Shown here: piece by piece, positions 2,888 to 46,779 of the stretch
How positions within the stretch are numbered: position 1 is the stretch's first letter
How the letters are laid out: each line of letters starts with the position of its first letter
Source of the DNA: Candidatus Pelagibacter communis
GTDB taxonomy: Bacteria > Pseudomonadota > Alphaproteobacteria > Pelagibacterales > Pelagibacteraceae
Length of the DNA: 64,000 bases
Assembly: GCF_001180185.1 (NCBI RefSeq)
Contig: NZ_CVSS01000051.1
Coordinates: forward strand, 1 to 64,000
Reading direction: 5' to 3'
The notes under the pieces: model-generated
The model's database searches: none
What the model saw: only the letters and a program-made list of their open reading frames with translations
What the model was told of the DNA's origin: nothing
Made by a program: the position numbers and the translations under genes

Positions 2888-3568
2888 ATGAAGAAATTAA
2901 TATTAGCATTAGCTATCTCTTTATTTACCTTTGCTACGGCACAGGCCGAAAGAGGAGTTAATATGGGAATATCAGTATTAGGCGGAGTATTTGAAGCCGA
3001 TGGTGGTAGTGAGAAAATTACGGGTGCGCACTCTTCTGGTGCTAGCCCAGGAAACGTAACAAAAAATTCTGTGCAGGAAGCTGCAGCGCAGTTTGTTATC
3101 GGATCAGTTTTTGTAGAAAAAACTCTAGGTGACAGATTAGCAATAGGAGTTGATTACGTTCCAATGTCAATGGAGTCAGAGACATCTGAAAACGTTCAAA
3201 CATCGTCAGATTCTTCTGGTGCTGGAACTAACACAGTTCAAGTAGACTTCGAAGACTTAACAACTATTTATGCAACGTTAGCAATGACAGACAACTTATA
3301 CTTAAAGGTTGGATACGTTGAGGTTGACGTTATAACAAACGAATCTTTGGCAACTGGTGGTTCTTACGGGAACACTTCACTAGACGGTCACGTTGTTGGT
3401 ATAGGATATCATAGAGACTTAGACACAGGAGCTTTTGTTAGATTAGAAGCAAACTTTATGGATTTAGATGGAGCAACTCTAACCAACACAGCAGACTCTA
3501 CAAAATCTGTTACTGCAGATGGAGCTGATGGATACGGAGCTAAGCTGTCAATTGGTAAATCGTTTTAA
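2888..3568 (+). CDS. Outer membrane beta-barrel protein, secreted
   Basis: The 226-residue protein starts with a clear Sec signal peptide (MKK, hydrophobic core, cleavage expected after ATAQA near residue 20). The rest shows alternating polar/hydrophobic stretches, many Gly, Asp, Ser and Thr, and a C-terminal strand ending in phenylalanine (GAKLSIGKSF), the usual outer membrane insertion signal. It looks like a small porin-like or structural barrel protein. It stands alone with its own leader and a strong terminator, consistent with a highly expressed gene; its codons (GTT, GGA, AAC) are richer in C/G than the neighbours. The specific function is unknown. Confidence 0.8.
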   Translation: MKKLILALAISLFTFATAQAERGVNMGISVLGGVFEADGGSEKITGAHSSGASPGNVTKNSVQEAAAQFVIGSVFVEKTLGDRLAIGVDYVPMSMESETSENVQTSSDSSGAGTNTVQVDFEDLTTIYATLAMTDNLYLKVGYVEVDVITNESLATGGSYGNTSLDGHVVGIGYHRDLDTGAFVRLEANFMDLDGATLTNTADSTKSVTADGADGYGAKLSIGKSF

Positions 3569-8310: not shown

Positions 8311-8379
8311 ATGAAATATATTATTTTAGGTGCTGCGATAGCTTGGTTTATGTATATGGCAGATAAATATATGTTTTAA
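8311..8379 (+). CDS. Possible 22-residue single-pass membrane peptide
   Basis: A short open frame begins four bases after the livM stop, encodes a 22-residue peptide (start MKYIILGAAIAWFMYMADKY) and ends just before the terminator at 8385. One hydrophobic segment of about 14 residues is followed by charged residues, as in small membrane peptides that bind transporters. It would be the last cistron of the liv operon. No homologue is recognised and a random frame of this size is possible, so confidence is modest. Confidence 0.38.
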   Translation: MKYIILGAAIAWFMYMADKYMF

Positions 8380-8384
8380 TAAAA

Positions 8385-8420
8385 AAACCCCAGCGAATTT
8401 CTTCGCTAGGGTTTAAAATA
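8385..8420. terminator. Bidirectional terminator between livM and the binding protein gene
   Basis: The arms AAACCC+AGCGAA (8385-8397) and TTCGCT+GGGTTT (8402-8414) pair with a single C/A mismatch and a four-base loop. A run of A on the left and T/A-rich sequence on the right let it serve both the liv operon and the converging binding protein gene. Confidence 0.85.
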
Positions 8421-8427
8421 TAAAATA

Positions 8428-9618
8428 TTATCTTTGTTTTTTAGTTTTGAATTTTCCGCCTTTAACTTCTTGTTCTAAGAAAGAACCTTCAGCTTCACCG
8501 ACGCTAGTAAAAGTAACTCCAGTTGCACCTTCGTAGTCAACTTTCTTACCTTTAGCTAATAAATCTAAACCTTTTTTAAGCTCACCCGGATAAATCTTTG
8601 TTCCAGGACCGTTAGCAACATCCATTACATTTTTTGCAATTGATGCTCTATCAGCTGAATTACCTGCTTGAATTGCTAAAACAATTAAAGCAGCTGCATC
8701 GTACGACTCTCCAGTATAAGGACCAGAGCTATCAATACCAGCTGCACTCGCAACTTTAGCAAATACTCCTGAACCTTTACCAGTTGATCCTGGCATAGAA
8801 CCAAAAGATTTCTTTAAGTCTTTTCCAAATGCGTCAACTAGTGATTGACCAATCATACCATCTGATAAAACAAATTTATCAAATGCACCTGAGTCCAAAG
8901 AAGCTTGTATAATTCCTTTACCACCTTGGTCTAGGTAACCGATAACAGCAACTGCATCACCACCTGCTGAAGCAAGTGTTGCTACTTCAGATGAGTAGTC
9001 TGCTTTTCCATCTTCGTGAGCATTAACAGTTGTTACTTTAATACCATGAGCTTCAACAGCCGCTTTGTAAACATCTGCTAAACCTTTTCCATAGTCATTG
9101 TTTGTATAAGTAATTGCAACACTTTTAACTTTTCTATCTTTAGTAATATCAGCTAAAATCTGACCACCTCTTGCATCTGATGGGGCAGTTCTAAAGAAAT
9201 AACCTTTGTCATCAAGAGTTGTTAATCCTGGTGATGTTGCTGATGGTGATATCATAACTACACCATTTGGTACTGCAACATTTGAGGCAATTGCTCCGGT
9301 TACACCTGAACAGTCAGCACCCATAATAGCTGCAACTCCCTGTGCGATCACTCCTTCTGCAGCCGCAGTTGCTGCTGCTGAGTCAACGCATGTTGAGTCT
9401 GCTCTAATTACTTCAATACTTTTTCCACCTAATAGTGAGCCAGAGTCTGATGCTTCTTTAAAAGCAAGCTCAGCTGAAGCTGCCATAGCTGGTGTTAGAG
9501 ATTCAATAGGACCAGTAAATCCTAAAATAATTCCCATTTTTAGTCCATGTCCATCTGCAGATGCGTTTGATGTGAAAGAAAACACAAACATAAATGCAGC
9601 GATAAATAGTTTTTTCAT
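8428..9618 (-). CDS. livK: Periplasmic substrate-binding protein of the Liv-type ABC transporter
   Basis: A type I periplasmic binding protein (family of LivK/UrtA/amide binders) of 396 residues. It has a signal peptide (MKKLFIAAFMFVFSFTSNASA) followed by GLKMGIILGFTGPIESLTPAMAASAELAFKEA, the classical start of the mature domain. An upstream in-frame ATG at 9642 exists, but the ATG at 9618 is preceded by AAGAGGAAG at ideal distance and begins the signal peptide, so it was chosen. It is convergent with livGFHM and probably supplies that transporter. The ligand cannot be read from sequence; the gene symbol names the family, not the specificity. Confidence 0.9.
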   Translation of the reverse strand: MKKLFIAAFMFVFSFTSNASADGHGLKMGIILGFTGPIESLTPAMAASAELAFKEASDSGSLLGGKSIEVIRADSTCVDSAAATAAAEGVIAQGVAAIMGADCSGVTGAIASNVAVPNGVVMISPSATSPGLTTLDDKGYFFRTAPSDARGGQILADITKDRKVKSVAITYTNNDYGKGLADVYKAAVEAHGIKVTTVNAHEDGKADYSSEVATLASAGGDAVAVIGYLDQGGKGIIQASLDSGAFDKFVLSDGMIGQSLVDAFGKDLKKSFGSMPGSTGKGSGVFAKVASAAGIDSSGPYTGESYDAAALIVLAIQAGNSADRASIAKNVMDVANGPGTKIYPGELKKGLDLLAKGKKVDYEGATGVTFTSVGEAEGSFLEQEVKGGKFKTKKQR

Positions 9619-9739
9619 TATCTTCCTCTTTATTGTTAACAATTTATAAAAGATAAATTAAAACCTATTTAAATAATATTTCAATAAACAATTTATTTAA
9701 TTTTAAAGAAAAACTGTGTAGAAATTCACATTTTACAAG

Positions 9740-10351
9740 TTAAAAGTACCGTTTAAATGTTTCATTGATGGACAAAACGCCATAGTCATTTAATCCACCA
9801 ATAATTAATTGTAATGCAACTAATAAAATAAATCCTAACCCAACGTAAACTATCCACAAATGTTTTTGGATATAATGAGCCAAATATGTTGCTAAAGCTC
9901 CAGTCAATACAACTGATAACATCAAACCAAAAATCATAAATCCAAAATATCCTTTTGCAGCAGCTACAACACCAATGACATTATCAAAACTGATCATGAT
10001 ATCTGCAAATAAAACTTTACCAATACTATTGATATATGAAGGCTCTTTAGTCTTATTTGTTTGAGATCTTACTTTTTTTATATCAACTAAATCTTTTCTA
10101 AGGTCATTAACTATCCAAATTAATAAAATGCCACCTAAAATTTTAACGAAATAAAATTCAAATAAATATGTAGCAAATATTGCAAAAAAAATTTTGAAAG
10201 CAAATGCTCCTATAACTCCCCACAGAATAATTTGTTTTCTGTTTTTTGGCACAAAATTCGCAGCTATCGAGCCAACTATAACAGCGTTATCTGCTGTAAG
10301 TATTAACGTGATAAAAATAATTTTCGTTAAAATTATAAGTTCTTCAATCAA
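9740..10351 (-). CDS. TerC/YjbE family integral membrane protein
   Basis: A 203-residue membrane protein of the TerC family with the paired acidic membrane motifs typical of it: TADNAVIVGSIAA near residue 19 and MISFDNVIGVVAAA near residue 119. Around seven membrane segments are expected. Relatives such as YjbE export manganese or handle other metals; that role is inferred. It is monocistronic in appearance, with 85 bases to the TPR gene upstream. Confidence 0.82.
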   Translation of the reverse strand: MIEELIILTKIIFITLILTADNAVIVGSIAANFVPKNRKQIILWGVIGAFAFKIFFAIFATYLFEFYFVKILGGILLIWIVNDLRKDLVDIKKVRSQTNKTKEPSYINSIGKVLFADIMISFDNVIGVVAAAKGYFGFMIFGLMLSVVLTGALATYLAHYIQKHLWIVYVGLGFILLVALQLIIGGLNDYGVLSINETFKRYF

Positions 10352-42251: not shown

Positions 42252-42692
42252 ATGTCAAAGGTTTTTAAATTAGGAATATCTAGTGAAAATAATAAAAAAA
42301 TTACTGAGGTAGACCATATAGAGGTATTAGCAAATAAAGGTATTATTGGGGACAGACATTTTAGTGATTATAATGATCCATATTGTCAATTATCGCTAAT
42401 CGAATCAGAAAATATTGATTTTTATAACTTAAAATATAGTTTGGATATCCCTTATGTAAATTTTAGAAGAAATATAGTTACAAAAGGTATTAGGCTCAAT
42501 CAATTAGTTGGAAAAAAATTTAAAATTGGAAGTGTTGAATTAGAGGGAATTGATCTATGTCGACCATGCAGGCACTTAACTGAGATTCTAGGTCAAGATA
42601 ATATTTTAAAAGAATTTTTAAGAAAAGGTGGTTTAAGATGTCAAATTTTATCATCATCTAGAATAAGAGTAGGTGATAAAATTATTTGTTAA
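42252..42692 (+). CDS. MOSC domain protein
   Basis: A 146-residue MOSC protein with the conserved cysteine region LEGIDLCRPCRHLTEIL (near residues 97-113) and a GIIGDRHF motif. MOSC domains carry sulfur or bind the molybdenum cofactor. It is the last gene of the run beginning at 38997. Its stop overlaps that of the convergent small gene by four bases. Its link with creatine metabolism is unclear. Confidence 0.8.
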   Translation: MSKVFKLGISSENNKKITEVDHIEVLANKGIIGDRHFSDYNDPYCQLSLIESENIDFYNLKYSLDIPYVNFRRNIVTKGIRLNQLVGKKFKIGSVELEGIDLCRPCRHLTEILGQDNILKEFLRKGGLRCQILSSSRIRVGDKIIC

Positions 42693-42916
42693 TCAGGATT
42701 TTTTTTTAAATAATCTAAATATTGAACAATTTCATTATATTTTTCATCAGGAATATCTTTGTAACTCATTTTAAATTTGTTTTTAATACATATTGCTACA
42801 TGAGCATACGGATTTCTTCCTTTTGGATGGTTCGGACTTTCGGGAAGTTTTCCAACCAAATAATCGCCAGCTTCCTGAATAATTTTCCACAGTTTACTTG
42901 CGTTTTCTTTGTTCAC
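42689..42916 (-). CDS. Small conserved hypothetical protein (75 residues)
   Basis: No function is recognised. The protein is hydrophilic, starts at GTG, and has a WKIIQEAGDYLVGKLPESPNHPKGRNPYAHVAICIK pattern divided by a Pro/His/Arg-rich turn, with an ending rich in Lys and Tyr. It is translated convergently with the MOSC gene. A truncated paralogue of its first 20 residues lies at 45206-45274, and a 26-base direct repeat begins 18 bases upstream of its start. The family seems to be repeated in this genome. Confidence 0.62.
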   Translation of the reverse strand: MNKENASKLWKIIQEAGDYLVGKLPESPNHPKGRNPYAHVAICIKNKFKMSYKDIPDEKYNEIVQYLDYLKKNPD

Positions 42917-42933
42917 ACACTCACTTTTCTTAT

Positions 42934-42959
42934 TTTATCTCTTTTGTATCTAGTTTGTA
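42934..42959 (+). repeat. Left copy of 26-base direct repeat flanking the GC-richer cassette
   Basis: This copy differs from 45065-45090 at one base only (C at 42941 against T). Its right half is a short tandem: GTATCTAGTTT occurs twice in a row from 42946. It lies between the small conserved gene and the TetR gene. No inverted terminal repeats or transposase are seen, so an attachment-site or recombination origin is more likely than an insertion sequence. Confidence 0.8.
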
Positions 42960-43016
42960 TCTAGTTATCCTATAAAATCCTATAAATTGTAACCAGTATC
43001 AATAGAGATTTTTTAA

Positions 43017-43580
43017 TTATTTAAATGTAGTCATCTTCAAATATTCTTCTAAGTTATTCTTAATCCATTTGAGACGCTTATCTTTATTTGCCTGCAAATC
43101 CGAACGTCTCAATATTCCAACTAATCCATGAACAGATGCCCAAATATTGACTGCTTTTATCATAACATCTTTATCAGATGCATTGGGCATAAAATTTTTA
43201 ACTCCTTGAATTACTCCATCAAAAGCTTCATCAAATAGAGCTTCTATATCGGGATAAAGAGATATATCTAAATCCGTATTCCCAAACATTAAATCGTAAA
43301 TATATGGATACTTTAATCCAAATCTTATGTAATGAGCTCCGTAACCAGAAAAATTATTGGTTAAATTTTTCTTGCCCTTATTTATTATTTCAAAACCTCT
43401 TCGAACCAACTCTGCTTTAAGATCATTTTTGTTTTTTAAATGTCTATAAAAAGCAGTATTTGAAACTCTAGCTTTCTTAGCAACTTCTCGCATATTAACT
43501 TTTTCCCAAGACTCAGCGACACAAATATTCCATGCAACCTCAACGAGTTTTTCTTTTAGATTTTTTTTGTGATAGCTCAT
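43017..43580 (-). CDS. TetR/AcrR family transcriptional regulator
   Basis: A 187-residue TetR protein: the N-terminal DNA-binding domain includes NMREVAKKARVSNTAFYRHLKNKNDLKAELV (residues 24-54), with the family recognition-helix pattern. The C-terminal half resembles the TetR_C regulatory domain. It is divergent from the two membrane-protein genes, and two palindromic operator-like sites lie in the 101 bases between. It therefore probably represses itself and those genes until a hydrophobic ligand binds. Its base composition is closer to the host than that of its targets. Confidence 0.87.
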   Translation of the reverse strand: MSYHKKNLKEKLVEVAWNICVAESWEKVNMREVAKKARVSNTAFYRHLKNKNDLKAELVRRGFEIINKGKKNLTNNFSGYGAHYIRFGLKYPYIYDLMFGNTDLDISLYPDIEALFDEAFDGVIQGVKNFMPNASDKDVMIKAVNIWASVHGLVGILRRSDLQANKDKRLKWIKNNLEEYLKMTTFK

Positions 43581-43588
43581 ATCAAATT

Positions 43589-43609
43589 AATGTTTACAAA
43601 GTAAACATT
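43589..43609. promoter_or_regulatory. Palindromic TetR operator, site 1
   Basis: A perfect inverted repeat of two nine-base arms (AATGTTTAC and GTAAACATT) around AAA lies nine bases from the tetR start codon. The 19-base core (43590-43608) recurs in degenerate form at 43624-43642. Size, symmetry and position are typical of TetR self-operators. Confidence 0.8.
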
Positions 43610-43623
43610 TTCCTATAGTAATC

Positions 43624-43642
43624 ATGTTATCTTAGTAAACAT
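43624..43642. promoter_or_regulatory. Palindromic TetR operator, site 2
   Basis: ATGTTATCTTAGTAAACAT has the same length and right half-site as site 1 and a weaker left half. Its start lies 34 bases from that of site 1. It is 39 bases before the chosen start of the ABA4-like gene, so a bound repressor would cover that promoter. Confidence 0.7.
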
Positions 43643-43681
43643 AATAACAGGATTTTAAATATAATGAAAGAAGGTTGGATC

Positions 43682-44230
43682 ATGAAGAAAAATTTGTATC
43701 TTAGCGCCGTTTGGTTGATCATAACACTTTTGGCAACTGGCTTAGTCCTGTATTTCTTGCGAAATTTCCTACCCAATGATCTTGAATCTTGGTTCTCCTA
43801 TAGTGGACTGATTGCGATGATTGGCTGGGTGATCTTGATTTTTGGGCCACGACGTTGGCCGTTATTATCGATCTTGCCGGCGTATGTTTTCCCAGCAGTT
43901 CTATCGTTGGGTTACGTGATTTTGATACTGCGCCACTTCGGTCCCGCTGAAGGTGGTTACAATACACTAGCGGATGTAGCGAAATTATTATCCAACGATC
44001 ATATTTTGCTAGCAGGTTGGGTGCACTATTTGGCGTTCGACCTTTTCATTGGTGCATGGATTTCACGGCAATCAGATGATGCTGGTATTTCACGAGTAGT
44101 TCAGGCTCCGATCCTAGCCTCAACTTTCATGTTTGGCCCACTTGGGTTGCTCCTGTTCCTGATGTTATGGAAGGCCCGTAAACTGATACTAGATATCCCT
44201 CAATCGATAACAAAAGGAGCTGGACAATGA
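43682..44230 (+). CDS. ABA4-like (DUF4281) membrane protein
   Basis: A protein of 182 residues with four to five membrane segments and the DUF4281/ABA4 signature around LLAGWVHYLAFDLFIGAWISRQ, then VQAPILASTFMFGPLGLLLFL. Plant ABA4 is needed for neoxanthin synthesis; bacterial relatives are uncharacterised or carotenoid linked. An ATG at 43664 is open, but AGAAGG sits seven bases before the ATG at 43682, which was chosen. Codons such as CTG, GGC, CGT and GTG mark it as foreign to the AT-rich surroundings. It overlaps the next gene by four bases. Confidence 0.82.
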   Translation: MKKNLYLSAVWLIITLLATGLVLYFLRNFLPNDLESWFSYSGLIAMIGWVILIFGPRRWPLLSILPAYVFPAVLSLGYVILILRHFGPAEGGYNTLADVAKLLSNDHILLAGWVHYLAFDLFIGAWISRQSDDAGISRVVQAPILASTFMFGPLGLLLFLMLWKARKLILDIPQSITKGAGQ

Positions 44231-45033
44231 CGACACTGACACTATCACCAAAGGTTTCTGTGACTTCCCGTGTGGAGGATTTGCTCTGGCAGGGTGGTTT
44301 AATTATCATCGCGTTCTTGCCAGTCACGTTCCTGGTTTCACTTTATGATCCACGTCAGCTGAACGAAATAAATATTTGGTCGAAACCAATGAAGTTCTAT
44401 GCGTCGGTTGGACTGCACATGATAACCATCGCCTTCATTGCACGTTTTATTGATTACGATGTTCGGAGAAAATTTTCGGTTTATGTCCTGGGCTGGGTAC
44501 TGACATTCACTGCGATTTTTGAGTTGGCCTACCTTACTATGCAGGCTGCACGCGGACGTCACTCGCACTGGAACTTCGAGACCACGTTCGAATCCTTGAT
44601 GTACGCTACAATGGGCATTGGAGCTGTCATATTGATTCTGATTCCTGTAGTAATCGGTCTGCTGGTTTACCGCTACCCTGTTCGTGAGATGCGTCAGGGT
44701 CTACGACTTGGTATTTTGTTAGGCATGATCCTCGGATTTTTCACAACTTTAATTGTCGCCGGTTATATGTCGCAAACATACGGCCACTGGGTCGGTGGAG
44801 TCAAAAGTGATGCCGATGGCCTGCCAATCGTCGGTTGGGTGCGTAGTGGTGGTGACCTACGTGTGCCTCACTTCTTCGCGACGCACTTGATGCAGATCAT
44901 CCCTGTGATTGGATTTATCGCTGATCGTTTCTTCCAAAGACCAAGACTTATTGTTGTCATCGCATCTACTATAGGTGTAGGTATGGTCGCTTTCACATTC
45001 TTGCAGGCTTTAAGAGGTCAACCATTCATCTGA
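44227..45033 (+). CDS. Hypothetical seven-segment membrane protein of the foreign cassette
   Basis: The 268-residue protein has about seven hydrophobic segments. It shows WSKPMKFYASVGLHMITIAFIARF, TMQAARGRHSHWNFETTFESLMYATMG and VGWVRSGGDLRVPHFFATHLMQIIPVIGF, a pattern of histidines and polar residues inside membrane segments. I do not know a characterised relative. GC is much higher than around it: 44521-44580 has 35 G/C in 60 bases, against 8 in 60 at 45421-45480. Its start overlaps the ABA4-like stop (ATGA), so the two are co-translated and likely act together. Confidence 0.75.
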   Translation: MTTLTLSPKVSVTSRVEDLLWQGGLIIIAFLPVTFLVSLYDPRQLNEINIWSKPMKFYASVGLHMITIAFIARFIDYDVRRKFSVYVLGWVLTFTAIFELAYLTMQAARGRHSHWNFETTFESLMYATMGIGAVILILIPVVIGLLVYRYPVREMRQGLRLGILLGMILGFFTTLIVAGYMSQTYGHWVGGVKSDADGLPIVGWVRSGGDLRVPHFFATHLMQIIPVIGFIADRFFQRPRLIVVIASTIGVGMVAFTFLQALRGQPFI

Positions 45034-45064
45034 TCAGCAATTTGCTTTAAAAATAGTTATTTGA

Positions 45065-45090
45065 TTTATCTTTTTTGTATCTAGTTTGTA
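45065..45090 (+). repeat. Right copy of 26-base direct repeat flanking the GC-richer cassette
   Basis: Same orientation as 42934-42959 and identical at 25 of 26 positions. It begins 32 bases after the last cassette gene. A third partial match (TTTTGTATCTA) occurs at 45276-45286 just upstream of the gene stub, which indicates that the motif travels with the 5' end of the small gene family. Confidence 0.8.
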
Positions 45091-45205
45091 ATGTAGTTTT
45101 TTTATTAAATAGATGAGTCTTTAAGCGATTTACTTAATATAAATTTTTGATTATCCGCATAAGTACTGTAGTTTGATGTAGCTTAATGTGGAATAATGTG
45201 TCCCT

Positions 45206-45274
45206 CTATTCCCTTAAATAATCTCCAGCTTCTTGAATTAATTTCCATAATCTACTTGTGTTTTCTTTATTCAA
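45206..45274 (-). pseudogene. Truncated paralogue of the 75-residue gene at 42689-42916
   Basis: Reading leftward from a TTG at 45274, the frame encodes NKENTSRLWKLIQEAGDYL and then RE and stop. This matches residues 2-20 of the intact gene at 16 of 19 positions. The remaining 55 codons are missing. It is a remnant of a second gene copy, cut at the right edge of the inserted region. The other 200 bases of the spacer 45034-45294 hold the direct repeat and nothing else recognised. Confidence 0.8.
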
Positions 45275-45294
45275 ATTTTGTATCTAAAGATAAT

Positions 45295-46779
45295 TTAAAA
45301 AGAGTGTTCACCTGATGCATTTCCGCTTGCCATATGGTAATGAAATGACATTGCTTGCAAGTCAAATCTCTTAGATTTTGCGATATACCAAATAAATTCG
45401 TTTGAAGTTCCAAGCTCATCAAAAAATTTATTATCAAATATTAATGCTTTATTAGGACTTAAATTTTGTTTTATAGATTTTAATAATCCTGATTTTCCAT
45501 AAAAATCAATAGAAACTTGATCTTCAGAACCTGAATTATTACTAAAACAAATGCCAAGTTTATTTTTATAGGATCTATTAATTAAAACCTGTCCCCAAGA
45601 TACACCCGTTTTTGATGACGGATTATAAATACTTTCATTAATTAAAGCTGTGCCAATAGAACTATTTAATTCCGATGATGATTTTTTATCTCCATATATT
45701 AATTGATGAGCTATCCTAGTAGGAATTTTATCTGAAGAAGATTTGGCTACGACTTTAAATAAACTTACATCAATAAAACCTGAATCTTTCACTAATTTAT
45801 CAATATCAAAAGAAATTGAATTTTTTGAGGGTGATTTTATTAACTTAACATCACTTTTAAATATCTTATCTCCATTATAAATTTCTATAAAAATCTCAAG
45901 TTCTGACGGACTCATTATTGGATACATTATCACTTTATTTAGGCAGTCTTTGAAGTAGGGGTATGTTCTCCTACTAGTTTGATTATTGAAATATTCCTTT
46001 ACTGTGGAATTATCGTAATAAGAATGATTAGCAGAAAATGCGTTGGTTCTTTTATTAATCTTTCCTGCAAGCAATCGTCCATAGAACAGTTTTTGTTTAG
46101 GTTGTAAAATTTTTAATATAGATTTATTTTCATCTTTATTTTTGTAATAATCTGATAAAAAAATATTTTTGTTATTGAGTCTTTCCATTTCAATTGGAAT
46201 TTTCTTTTTTATTTTACTGTCCTCTTCAAAAAATATTTCTATATTTTCTTTTAGTTTAAATGGACCTGTAGCAAAATTAAAAAAAGTATCATATTCTTTA
46301 TTTATTAGCACATCCACTGATGACTCATATACATGCACTTGATTAACTTTATCATCCTCAAAAATGTCATTTAATACTCTGTTAAATGAATGAACACTAT
46401 TAACAAAATCACTTCCAATATGGTTTACCATTACAGCGGGAAATGGAATAAAAAGATTTTTGTCAGAAAAAAATTCAATTATATATTCATTGATCTTTGA
46501 TGTCTCACTGAATAGATTATCTAAATTAAAGGAGTAAACTCTAGGTTCATTAATTTCAAAAGATAAAGAGTCAATTATAATACCGGCATCATTTATCGCA
46601 GTAATTTTAAGAGTTACATCTTTATTATTTCTTTTTAAAAGAAAGTGATTAAGGAAAGATATGTTCGAGGATGCTTGATCAAATCTTGGAACAATTAATG
46701 AGCTTCTGTGAACAGTATTTTTATTTTTAAACTTATGATAGTTTTTCCTATCAGCTTCAACATGTAAAAATGGCTTCAT
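45295..46779 (-). CDS. Unrecognised 494-residue protein
   Basis: No family is recognised. There is no signal peptide or long membrane segment. The sequence is rich in Ser, Asn, Lys and Phe and appears as alternating beta-type stretches, with repeated polar-hydrophobic segments such as DVTLKITAINDAGIIIDSL and QVSIDFYGKSGLLKSIKQNL that suggest immunoglobulin-like or beta-sandwich domains. The C terminus is distinctive: YIAKSKRFDLQAMSFHYHMASGNASGEHSF. It stands alone beside the acquired cassette, with AT-rich host-like composition. Confidence 0.6.
   Translation of the reverse strand: MKPFLHVEADRKNYHKFKNKNTVHRSSLIVPRFDQASSNISFLNHFLLKRNNKDVTLKITAINDAGIIIDSLSFEINEPRVYSFNLDNLFSETSKINEYIIEFFSDKNLFIPFPAVMVNHIGSDFVNSVHSFNRVLNDIFEDDKVNQVHVYESSVDVLINKEYDTFFNFATGPFKLKENIEIFFEEDSKIKKKIPIEMERLNNKNIFLSDYYKNKDENKSILKILQPKQKLFYGRLLAGKINKRTNAFSANHSYYDNSTVKEYFNNQTSRRTYPYFKDCLNKVIMYPIMSPSELEIFIEIYNGDKIFKSDVKLIKSPSKNSISFDIDKLVKDSGFIDVSLFKVVAKSSSDKIPTRIAHQLIYGDKKSSSELNSSIGTALINESIYNPSSKTGVSWGQVLINRSYKNKLGICFSNNSGSEDQVSIDFYGKSGLLKSIKQNLSPNKALIFDNKFFDELGTSNEFIWYIAKSKRFDLQAMSFHYHMASGNASGEHSF

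Follow-up and report, generated by a model that had tools for sequence, protein, structure and literature searches.

The window analysed here is a 64,000-nucleotide stretch of Candidatus Pelagibacter communis (NCBI RefSeq assembly GCF_001180185.1, contig NZ_CVSS01000051.1, positions 1 to 64,000, forward strand), within which a TetR-family regulator is encoded divergently to a two-gene operon comprising an ABA4-like membrane protein and a 268-aa protein without a Pfam family. These three genes lie between direct repeats and next to a conserved gene of 75 codons, and the features of the locus are as follows.

42689..42916, minus strand: conserved 75-codon gene (target gene), restored by the element; nt 1-61 are element-supplied (attR), the rest is host
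42856..42916, minus strand: attR, the element-supplied copy of gene nt 1-61
42929..42984, minus strand: right-end signature (TATAGGATTTTATAGGATA, paired repeat, GAGATAAAATAAG), with the same layout in relatives
42941..42966, minus strand: B', a paired ~10-bp repeat (proposed integrase arm-type site), overlapping a 26-mer at 42934-42959
43017..43580, minus strand: TetR-family regulator, 187 aa (TetR_N and TetR_C_33), divergent to the operon
43664..44230, plus strand: ABA4-like membrane protein, 188 aa (PF14108)
44227..45033, plus strand: 268-aa protein without a Pfam family, with seven long helices plus one short in a low-confidence model
45072..45099, minus strand: B, the paired repeat of the left end, overlapping a 26-mer at 45065-45090
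45112..45162, minus strand: conserved cassette left-end segment (TTATGCGG..CGCTTAAAGAC..), function unknown
45166..45202, minus strand: A, ~10-bp direct repeats near attL
45214..45274, minus strand: attL, the host copy of gene nt 1-61, a displaced fragment of the 75-codon gene
42856..45213: whole element, 2358 bp, as delimited by three genomes

A first-pass annotation had described this locus (as 42917-45294) as a GC-rich two-gene cassette with its own TetR regulator between two same-orientation 26-base repeats, and this observation holds. The GC counts are exact, with 35 of 60 at 44521-44580 and 8 of 60 at 45421-45480. By gene, ABA4 has a GC of 0.444, GC3 of 0.450 and CAI of 0.355, and the 268-aa gene 0.470, 0.494 and 0.334 respectively, as compared with a mean GC3 of 0.177 (sd 0.032, maximum 0.303) and a mean CAI of 0.700 (minimum 0.574) for 56 reference ORFs (mechanical ORFs of at least 150 aa in the window, cassette excluded), whereas TetR is near-native (GC3 0.229, CAI 0.628). 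The 26-base repeats are present at 42934-42959 and 45065-45090 with 25 of 26 identical positions. Dispersal of the repeat through the genome, or presence of the genes in all relatives, had been named in advance as grounds for rejecting the acquisition, and neither was found: the 18-base core of the repeat, allowing up to 2 mismatches, occurs only at these two places in the 1.0-Mb assembly (the backwards control pattern gave one match), and of 197 family genomes only the source genome itself (G000, 77% complete) has the 268-aa gene, with two further genomes found to carry it. A 58-nt repeat (84%) that had not been noticed lies further out at 42858-42915 and 45216-45273 and belongs to the duplication of the attachment site.

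The ABA4-like protein scores 101.3 bits against PF14108 (gathering cut-off 27) and the regulator 29.2 bits against TetR_N (cut-off 24). The 268-aa protein returned nothing in a PDB sequence search, and its single-sequence fold (pLDDT 52.9) was used only to count helices. A TetR match is found next to the relatives of the 268-aa gene in 11 of 19 alphaproteobacterial-class loci, and the TetR-linked ABA4/seven-helix membrane operon is known from other Alphaproteobacteria, for example Microvirga, although not every relative keeps the trio: the relative of the 268-aa gene on a Roseicitreum plasmid has no ABA4-like neighbour that we could recognise, and the Phaeobacter ABA4-like gene has no 268-aa partner annotated beside it. 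The function of the cargo was not tested, and a literature search on ABA4 listed mostly plant and algal papers. The product of the 75-codon gene gave a predicted fold with a pLDDT of 80 but no PDB match at E <= 0.001, and a profile search with it returned four matches, the best at E 0.29.

The 26-base repeats are not the ends of the insert, but internal paired sites near each end. The element is 99.6-99.8% identical in two other Pelagibacter genomes, with 10 variable positions of 2358 among the three, and divergence starts at 42855 and 45214, whereas the amidinotransferase gene next door is only 82-83% identical and the attL-side neighbours differ (a 494-aa gene, a MOSC gene and a second element). 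The real boundaries are two copies of the first 61 nt of the 75-codon gene. That gene has a match in 79 of 197 family genomes, which in two (G029 and G126) is only a short fragment. In 20 of the 197 genomes there is a match limited to the start of the gene (first ~20-23 codons, or longer but broken by stops), and in 15 of these it lies on the same contig and strand, upstream of the full gene.

Related inserts with other cargo, including restriction systems and metabolic and secreted-looking proteins, use the same site in relatives, and the left-end pattern is present in 27 of 397 family genomes. Of 30 left ends read by eye, 28 abut the core. The 32 cargo-bearing intervals measure 1.06-5.22 kb, and tandem arrays of different cassettes each bounded by the core occur at four of the loci retrieved for comparison (numbered L; here L043, L112, L123 and L124). 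An empty site had been proposed as a check on insertion, and two sister elements have closely matching ones: L034 (3237-bp insert) versus L072, with flanks identical at 290/300 and 293/300, and L035 (2677 bp) versus L073, at 281/300 and 285/300. These are the only 2 of 12 filled/empty comparisons that match well on both sides; L037 matches neither L051 nor L052 upstream. We did not find an empty site with the window's own flanks, and the 494-aa neighbour is rare (G000 and 4 others of 300 genus genomes, these at 28-31%). A DapA-type cassette shared by three genomes (L124, L125 and L128) is only modestly closer than its downstream flank (99.1-99.6% versus 91-92%).

Nearly all of these elements carry a paired repeat at both ends (B and B', the 26-mer of the window) that varies between elements but agrees within one. 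B/B' identity is 0.833 within an element versus 0.563 between elements, a difference reached in 0 of 100,000 permutations. The agreement is imperfect, with the own partner best in 18 of 25 pairs and only 0.43 in L046, which was retained. Of 36 core-to-core intervals, seven were left out of this test: L036 (a single B), two intervals of L132 (same genome as L112), L041 (automated anchor misplaced; its arms agree by eye), L039 (a gene fragment without element ends, not counted as an element), the first L045 interval (which truly has neither B nor B') and L130 (anchor missed; its arms agree by eye). The 29 remaining collapsed to 25 distinct pairs.

No integrase was found in the cassettes. No PF00589 match lies in a cassette in the 28 element-bearing genomes searched (15 and 13 in two profile searches), there is none in G000, and a tblastn search with the integrase of L106 over 62 retrieved loci hits only L136-L139. 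However, three ~9-kb virus-collection contigs with terminal repeats of 29, 81 and 98 bp (L104, L106 and L143) and one 8.9-kb SAR11 contig (L136) carry the same layout plus a tyrosine integrase, in the order B'-core-A-integrase with B in the first codons of the integrase gene. The residues taken to be catalytic (R, K, R, H, Y) are invariant in four aligned integrases (L104, L106, L136 and L137). Two of these contigs match particular cassettes: L106 matches L035 and L112:4722 at A 0.98 / B' 0.96, and L136 matches L126 at 0.98/0.89 and L129 at 0.98/0.79. L104 and L143 match no cassette closely, and no helper was found with arms matching the window's own cassette, for which L104 is among the best at A 0.66 and B' 0.68. 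The cassettes of L133 and L135 keep an integrase-like start at B (ATG followed by codons like the helper's). Helper integrases are rare, being found in 4 of 397 family genomes at any similarity, only one of them close (67%), and none in G000; searches of annotated phages and of plasmids returned none, and two exact patterns of the cassette left end gave 0 stretches in virus contigs. The four helpers lack the conserved left-end segment, so the cassettes do not derive from these exact helpers, and three of the four helper cores (L106, L136 and L143) differ from the host-type pattern at 4 specified positions.

We interpret the locus as a 2358-bp non-autonomous integrative cassette inserted in trans by satellite-like helpers, a reading to which we give a probability of roughly 0.8. 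In this view, a circular copy holding B', the 61-nt core, the A repeats, the conserved segment, B and the cargo recombined with the 5' end of the 75-codon SAR11 gene, restoring the gene with the cassette's own copy of its first 61 nt and upstream region and leaving the host's original 61 nt displaced at the far end. The enzyme is proposed to be the ~570-aa tyrosine integrase of the ~9-kb helpers, which use a closely similar core and the same kind of paired B sites. The sequences themselves establish the boundaries, the interspecies identity, insertion at the same site, the empty sites of two sister elements, the B/B' agreement, the lack of any integrase found in the cassettes and the existence of helper contigs with the layout, whereas the circular intermediate, the role of B/B' as integrase arm sites, the action of the helper integrase in trans, the way the DNA moves between cells and the role of the cargo are inferences, mobility itself having been neither tested nor seen in real time. 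The interpretation given in the first-pass annotation is supported only in part: recent acquisition of a compact, TetR-linked membrane operon is supported and the absence of an integrase is real, being best explained by a helper that supplies it in trans, but the 26-base repeats do not flank the insertion, and "ligand-controlled" is an inference from the TetR family only.

Spread of the cassette by ordinary homologous recombination or natural transformation between SAR11 cells, using the shared flanking genes and the 61-nt repeats with the ends as fossils of an old integration, is an unlikely alternative. SAR11 has high recombination, the conserved ends would give homology, and the DapA-type cassette does sit in similar downstream DNA, but identity in three genomes stops at the same positions on both sides although the attL-side neighbours are unrelated, tandem arrays of core-bounded cassettes are natural for site-specific integration, and helper contigs with matching attP exist for two cassette types. 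Mobilization in cis, whereby cassettes move only when a helper has integrated beside them and excise together with it (accretion, as described for CIMEs), is also considered unlikely. The tandem arrays and the closely similar core of the helpers are compatible with it, but nearly all cassettes keep a set of sites on both sides, which a purely passive fragment need not keep, and no helper-cassette tandem was recognised in the loci read, the structure of the rearranged record L105 not having been worked out. A composite or IS-type transposon that lost its transposase, with the 26-base repeats as its ends, would fit the foreign GC and the direct repeats but is very improbable and is already ruled out as to the ends, as the insert extends past the 26-mers to the 61-nt duplications, which are same-strand copies of the 5' end of a gene at a site used in many genomes; no transposase family was found for the cassette's proteins.

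The element has the direct-repeat att sites, restored target gene and displaced far-end fragment of tyrosine-integrase-type integrative elements, but does not encode its own integrase. The helpers resemble PICMI-type marine phage satellites (PMC10803314) in carrying an integrase plus a DUF5906 primase, in being small (about 9 kb; PICMI prototype 6.1 kb) and in targeting one gene, and PICMIs too can carry restriction and other defence genes. They fit a PICMI/PICI-like phage satellite as to integrase and primase, lack of capsid genes, small size and circular form. Integrase and primase families were identified for L104 and L136, and terminal repeats are present in L104, L106 and L143 but not in L136. 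No capsid family was found among 6 L104 proteins against Pfam, or among 8 L136 proteins against Pfam and 9 against PHROGs; the other L106 and L143 proteins were read but not scanned. Among the helper proteins scanned there was no PF05930 match, and PF12728 appeared only at E 0.15, below cut-off, which leaves the presence of an AlpA-type regulator undecided. Only a weak terminase-small-subunit match was found in L136 (E 1.5e-4), packaging into phage particles not having been assayed. The cassettes differ from PICMIs in carrying none of int, alpA and prim, and the target is the 5' end of a 75-codon SAR11 gene rather than the region next to fis. Tycheposons and VEIMEs (PMC11389934; PMC10803314) are likewise marine integrative elements carrying cargo, but tycheposons are described as having a tRNA gene at the border and a tyrosine recombinase (PMC10872708), whereas here the site is a protein gene and the cassette has no recombinase. 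CALINs and integron cassettes (PMC11389934) are also interchangeable gene packets without an integrase, in tandem arrays, that can be mobilised in trans; the sites here are a 61-nt gene end plus arm-like repeats (attC structures were not searched for), and a packet may hold several genes, on either strand. As in a lambda-type attP, the core lies between two sets of short direct repeats and the integrase gene is next to attP in the helpers, but the paired arm-like sites differ from element to element and agree within one, and in helpers one pair lies inside the integrase reading frame. CIMEs and integrase-less genomic islands are also attL/attR-bounded without a recombinase, whereas here a family shares conserved ends and one target with very small size.

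Literature searches on the mobile system showed no paper describing these cassettes (PMC12416821, PMC11389934, PMC10872708 and PMC10803314 were consulted), which, being limited to openly licensed papers, is not proof of absence. A broader possibility, which we regard as somewhat more likely than not, is that SAR11 maintains an open-ended library of such cassettes, second-order satellites sharing the 5' end of the 75-codon gene as one chromosomal port, each bearing a paired-repeat "address" on both ends that matches it to one lineage of ~9-kb satellite-like helpers, so that cassettes with restriction systems, secreted proteins or metabolic operons are exchanged between species in a lock-and-key manner. 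SAR11 bacteria have small genomes with few recognisable mobile elements, and how they exchange flexible genes is a long-standing question; the present locus suggests how a very streamlined microbe can still swap genes, giving a concrete port, exact boundaries, candidate helpers with an integrase and a typing rule (B/B' agreement) that predicts which helper moves which cassette. It also marks a readable signal by which defence and metabolic cassettes can be mined from SAR11 genomes.

One further virus record, L105 (21.8 kb), is rearranged; its structure was not worked out and nothing here rests on it. It has the 75-codon gene near one end and a 31% integrase near the other, and holds a B'-like pair and a piece of the 75-codon gene reading the other way near the integrase.

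The analysed region belongs to a SAR11 (Pelagibacter-type) assembly of 1,009,143 bases in 62 contigs that is 76.7% complete, and the two closest carriers of the cargo are named Candidatus Pelagibacter ubique. The observation made in the first-pass annotation, of GC-rich cargo genes lying between two near-identical 26-base direct repeats, is correct and its base counts and repeat identity are exact. Gene-by-gene composition, which had been proposed as a check, places the ABA4-like gene and the gene for the 268-aa protein far outside the composition of the window (GC3 0.450 and 0.494; mean 0.177 and maximum 0.303 for 56 reference ORFs), while the TetR gene is near-native. Dispersal of the repeat through the genome had been named as evidence that would count against an acquisition, but the 18-base core of the 26-mer is found only at these two places in the assembly. 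The accompanying interpretation, in which the repeats flank the insertion, is only partly supported, as a longer and less perfect repeat lies outside the 26-mers. The relevant features are as follows:

42689-42916, minus strand: 75-codon gene
42858-42915: first copy of the longer repeat, the 5' end of the 75-codon gene
45216-45273: second copy of the longer repeat, an isolated fragment of this gene
42856-45213: the element
45112-45162: conserved cassette segment of about 50 nt
45295-46779: 494-aa ORF next to attL

A three-way alignment with the corresponding loci of two other genomes (L111 and L112) shows 10 variable positions in 42856-45213 and abrupt divergence at 42855 and 45214, which correspond to gene nt 62 and 61 in the two copies. 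The adjacent amidinotransferase gene is 913/1116 to 925/1116 identical among the three genomes, and the neighbours beyond the fragment differ, being the 494-aa gene in the window, a MOSC gene in L111 and a second cassette in L112; that is, one unit in three contexts at one target. The 494-aa ORF has no Pfam match and has relatives in only 4 other of 300 genus genomes (28-31%).

The 75-codon gene gives a match in 79 of 197 family genomes. Twenty of the 197 have a match limited to the start of the gene, and in 15 of these it is on the same contig and strand, upstream of the full gene, although one of the 15 (genome G009) proved not to be an element. Two genomes (G137, contig C15, and G108, contig C19) have two equally scoring copies of the gene in inverted orientation on short contigs, probably an assembly artefact. 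A pattern for the cassette left end is found in 27 of 397 family genomes, with no hit of the reversed control pattern in the rows listed. The pattern misses some elements, as genomes G026 and G035 also carry them, and one of the 27, G030, has only a decayed, cargo-less remnant directly downstream of glmS (locus L082:1370-1595), without the left core fragment. Of 30 left ends examined by eye, 28 abut the core, the exceptions being L082 and a second locus, L086, with only a trace of the core. Tandem arrays of different cassettes occur in the loci L043, L112, L123 and L124, and L036 is a cassette without cargo (227 bp). A comparison with unoccupied sites in relatives had also been suggested beforehand. 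Of 12 filled/empty comparisons, L034 versus L072 and L035 versus L073 have flanks at least 281/300 identical on both sides, whereas the others match on one side or less well, and L037 has no match upstream to L051 or L052.

Reading along the gene, the elements consist of attL (61 nt); A, about four ~10-bp direct repeats; a conserved segment of about 50 nt; B, a pair of ~10-bp repeats followed by GAGATAAAnCAA; the cargo; TATAGGATTnTRTRGGATA; B', a pair like B; and attR with the full gene. The 26-mers of the first-pass annotation are the B/B' sites of the window with their common tails. B and B' agree within an element and vary between elements (25 distinct elements, mean identity 0.833 against 0.563, 0 of 100,000 permutations), with the own partner being best in 18 of 25. 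The two pairs disagree in L046 (0.43), and the first L045 cassette has no arms. The conserved segment (45112-45162 in the window, and in the aligned left ends) contains an imperfect inverted repeat TTATGCGG..CCGCATAA, and the segment was not seen at the attP sites of the four helper elements described below; whether it is a promoter, excision or packaging signal is not known. In some genera (loci L043, L046, L049, L050 and L163) the cassette right end is preceded by a repeat like ATGAAAAAACTTTTAGGGATC.TGGTTCTGGGTT, the start of a stock signal peptide (MKKLLGILVLGLL) that also begins many cargo genes, several just inside the left end, as if cargo were inserted behind a standard leader.

A scan of virus contigs for the core identified two contigs, L104 and L105; the L104 integrase led to a third contig, L106, and an alignment of three to a fourth, L143. 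L104, L106 and L143 are 8,983-9,070 bp with terminal repeats of 29, 81 and 98 bp, respectively, as expected of circles. L136 (8,864 bp) is a contig of a SAR11-family assembly and has no terminal repeats. All four of these putative helpers (L104, L106, L143 and L136) show the order B' - core - A - integrase, with the left B in the first codons of the integrase, and three of the four cores have 4 substitutions against the host-type pattern, mostly in its left half. In L105 (positions 300-560 of its record, L163), a B'-like pair is followed by a piece of the 75-codon gene reading the other way, next to a divergent integrase, an unresolved rearranged insertion. The helper integrases are 570-581 aa and score weakly for PF00589 (26.1 bits for L104 and 23.3 for L136; cut-off 27.1), but that of L136 matches the phage integrase family phrog_1 at E 7.6e-28, and residues that we take to be catalytic (R387, K414, R510, H534 and Y544 in L106) are invariant in the four aligned, L104, L106, L136 and a more distant relative, L137. 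L136 also encodes a DUF5906 primase/helicase, a RusA-like resolvase and a protein with a weak terminase-small-subunit match. L106 matches the cassettes L035 and L112:4722 (A 0.98, B' 0.96) and L136 matches L126 and L129 (A 0.98, B' 0.89 and 0.79), while L104, L143 and the type of the window have no close partner. Loci L137 (4657-11175) and L138 (around 8316-9887) hold relatives of the helper integrase (29% and 24%). L137 has an element-like gene set between tRNA-Leu(taa) at 3454-3539 and the integrase, and L138 has a tRNA-Leu(taa) about 8.5 kb from its integrase, suggesting that a sister helper type may use tRNA-Leu.

No integrase was found in the cassettes of the 28 element-bearing genomes searched. 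PF00589 matches in 39 and 13 genomes, 28 of them bearing elements, lie on other contigs or far from the cassettes; most genomes have a single ~325-aa match that we take to be Xer-like, and the genome of the window (G000), G012 and G038 have none. A tblastn search with the L106 integrase over 62 retrieved loci hits only L136-L139. The best supported mechanism is integrase-mediated insertion of a circular cassette at gene nt 61/62 with the enzyme supplied by a helper in trans, the B pairs acting as arm sites that set helper specificity. The circle, the action in trans and the role of the arms are inferred in this model rather than seen in the sequences. Cassettes L133 and L135 retain an ATG and codons like the helper integrase start at B, so the left end probably descends from an integrase gene of an unseen helper lineage. 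Integrase-dependent satellites, integrase-less cassettes and islands in protein genes have been described (PMC11389934; PMC10803314; PMC10872708), and islands in the dusA gene are also known. A SAR11 family of minimal cassettes with agreeing paired end-sites and a single port was not found in our literature searches on the mobile system.

Ten proteins resembling defence genes, from 8 cassettes, were scanned against PADLOC. Cassettes L034, L037, L043 (second), L122, L126 and L131 (6 of 8) gave E below 1e-20 for restriction or defence families, L130 gave a weak hit and L038 none; as the proteins were selected by eye this is not a frequency. Other cassettes carry HMGL plus cytidylyltransferase genes (L045), a DHDPS-family gene (L124 scanned; L125 and L128 hold the same cassette) with a regulator that we read as Lrp-type, an FtsX-type permease (L049) and helicases (L042 and L044). 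Secreted proteins were judged from their leader-like starts only. The cargo of the window is a module found elsewhere, although its biochemical function is not known, and a role in membrane-lipid or carotenoid-type chemistry is a guess from the plant ABA4 name. Relatives of the 268-aa protein occur in 23 of the other 384 genomes of the class sample at 27-48%, and an ABA4 match is adjacent in 15 and a TetR match in 11 of 19 loci read. The trio is annotated on plasmids of Microvirga ossetica and a Comamonadaceae strain, but not beside the Roseicitreum or Phaeobacter relatives.
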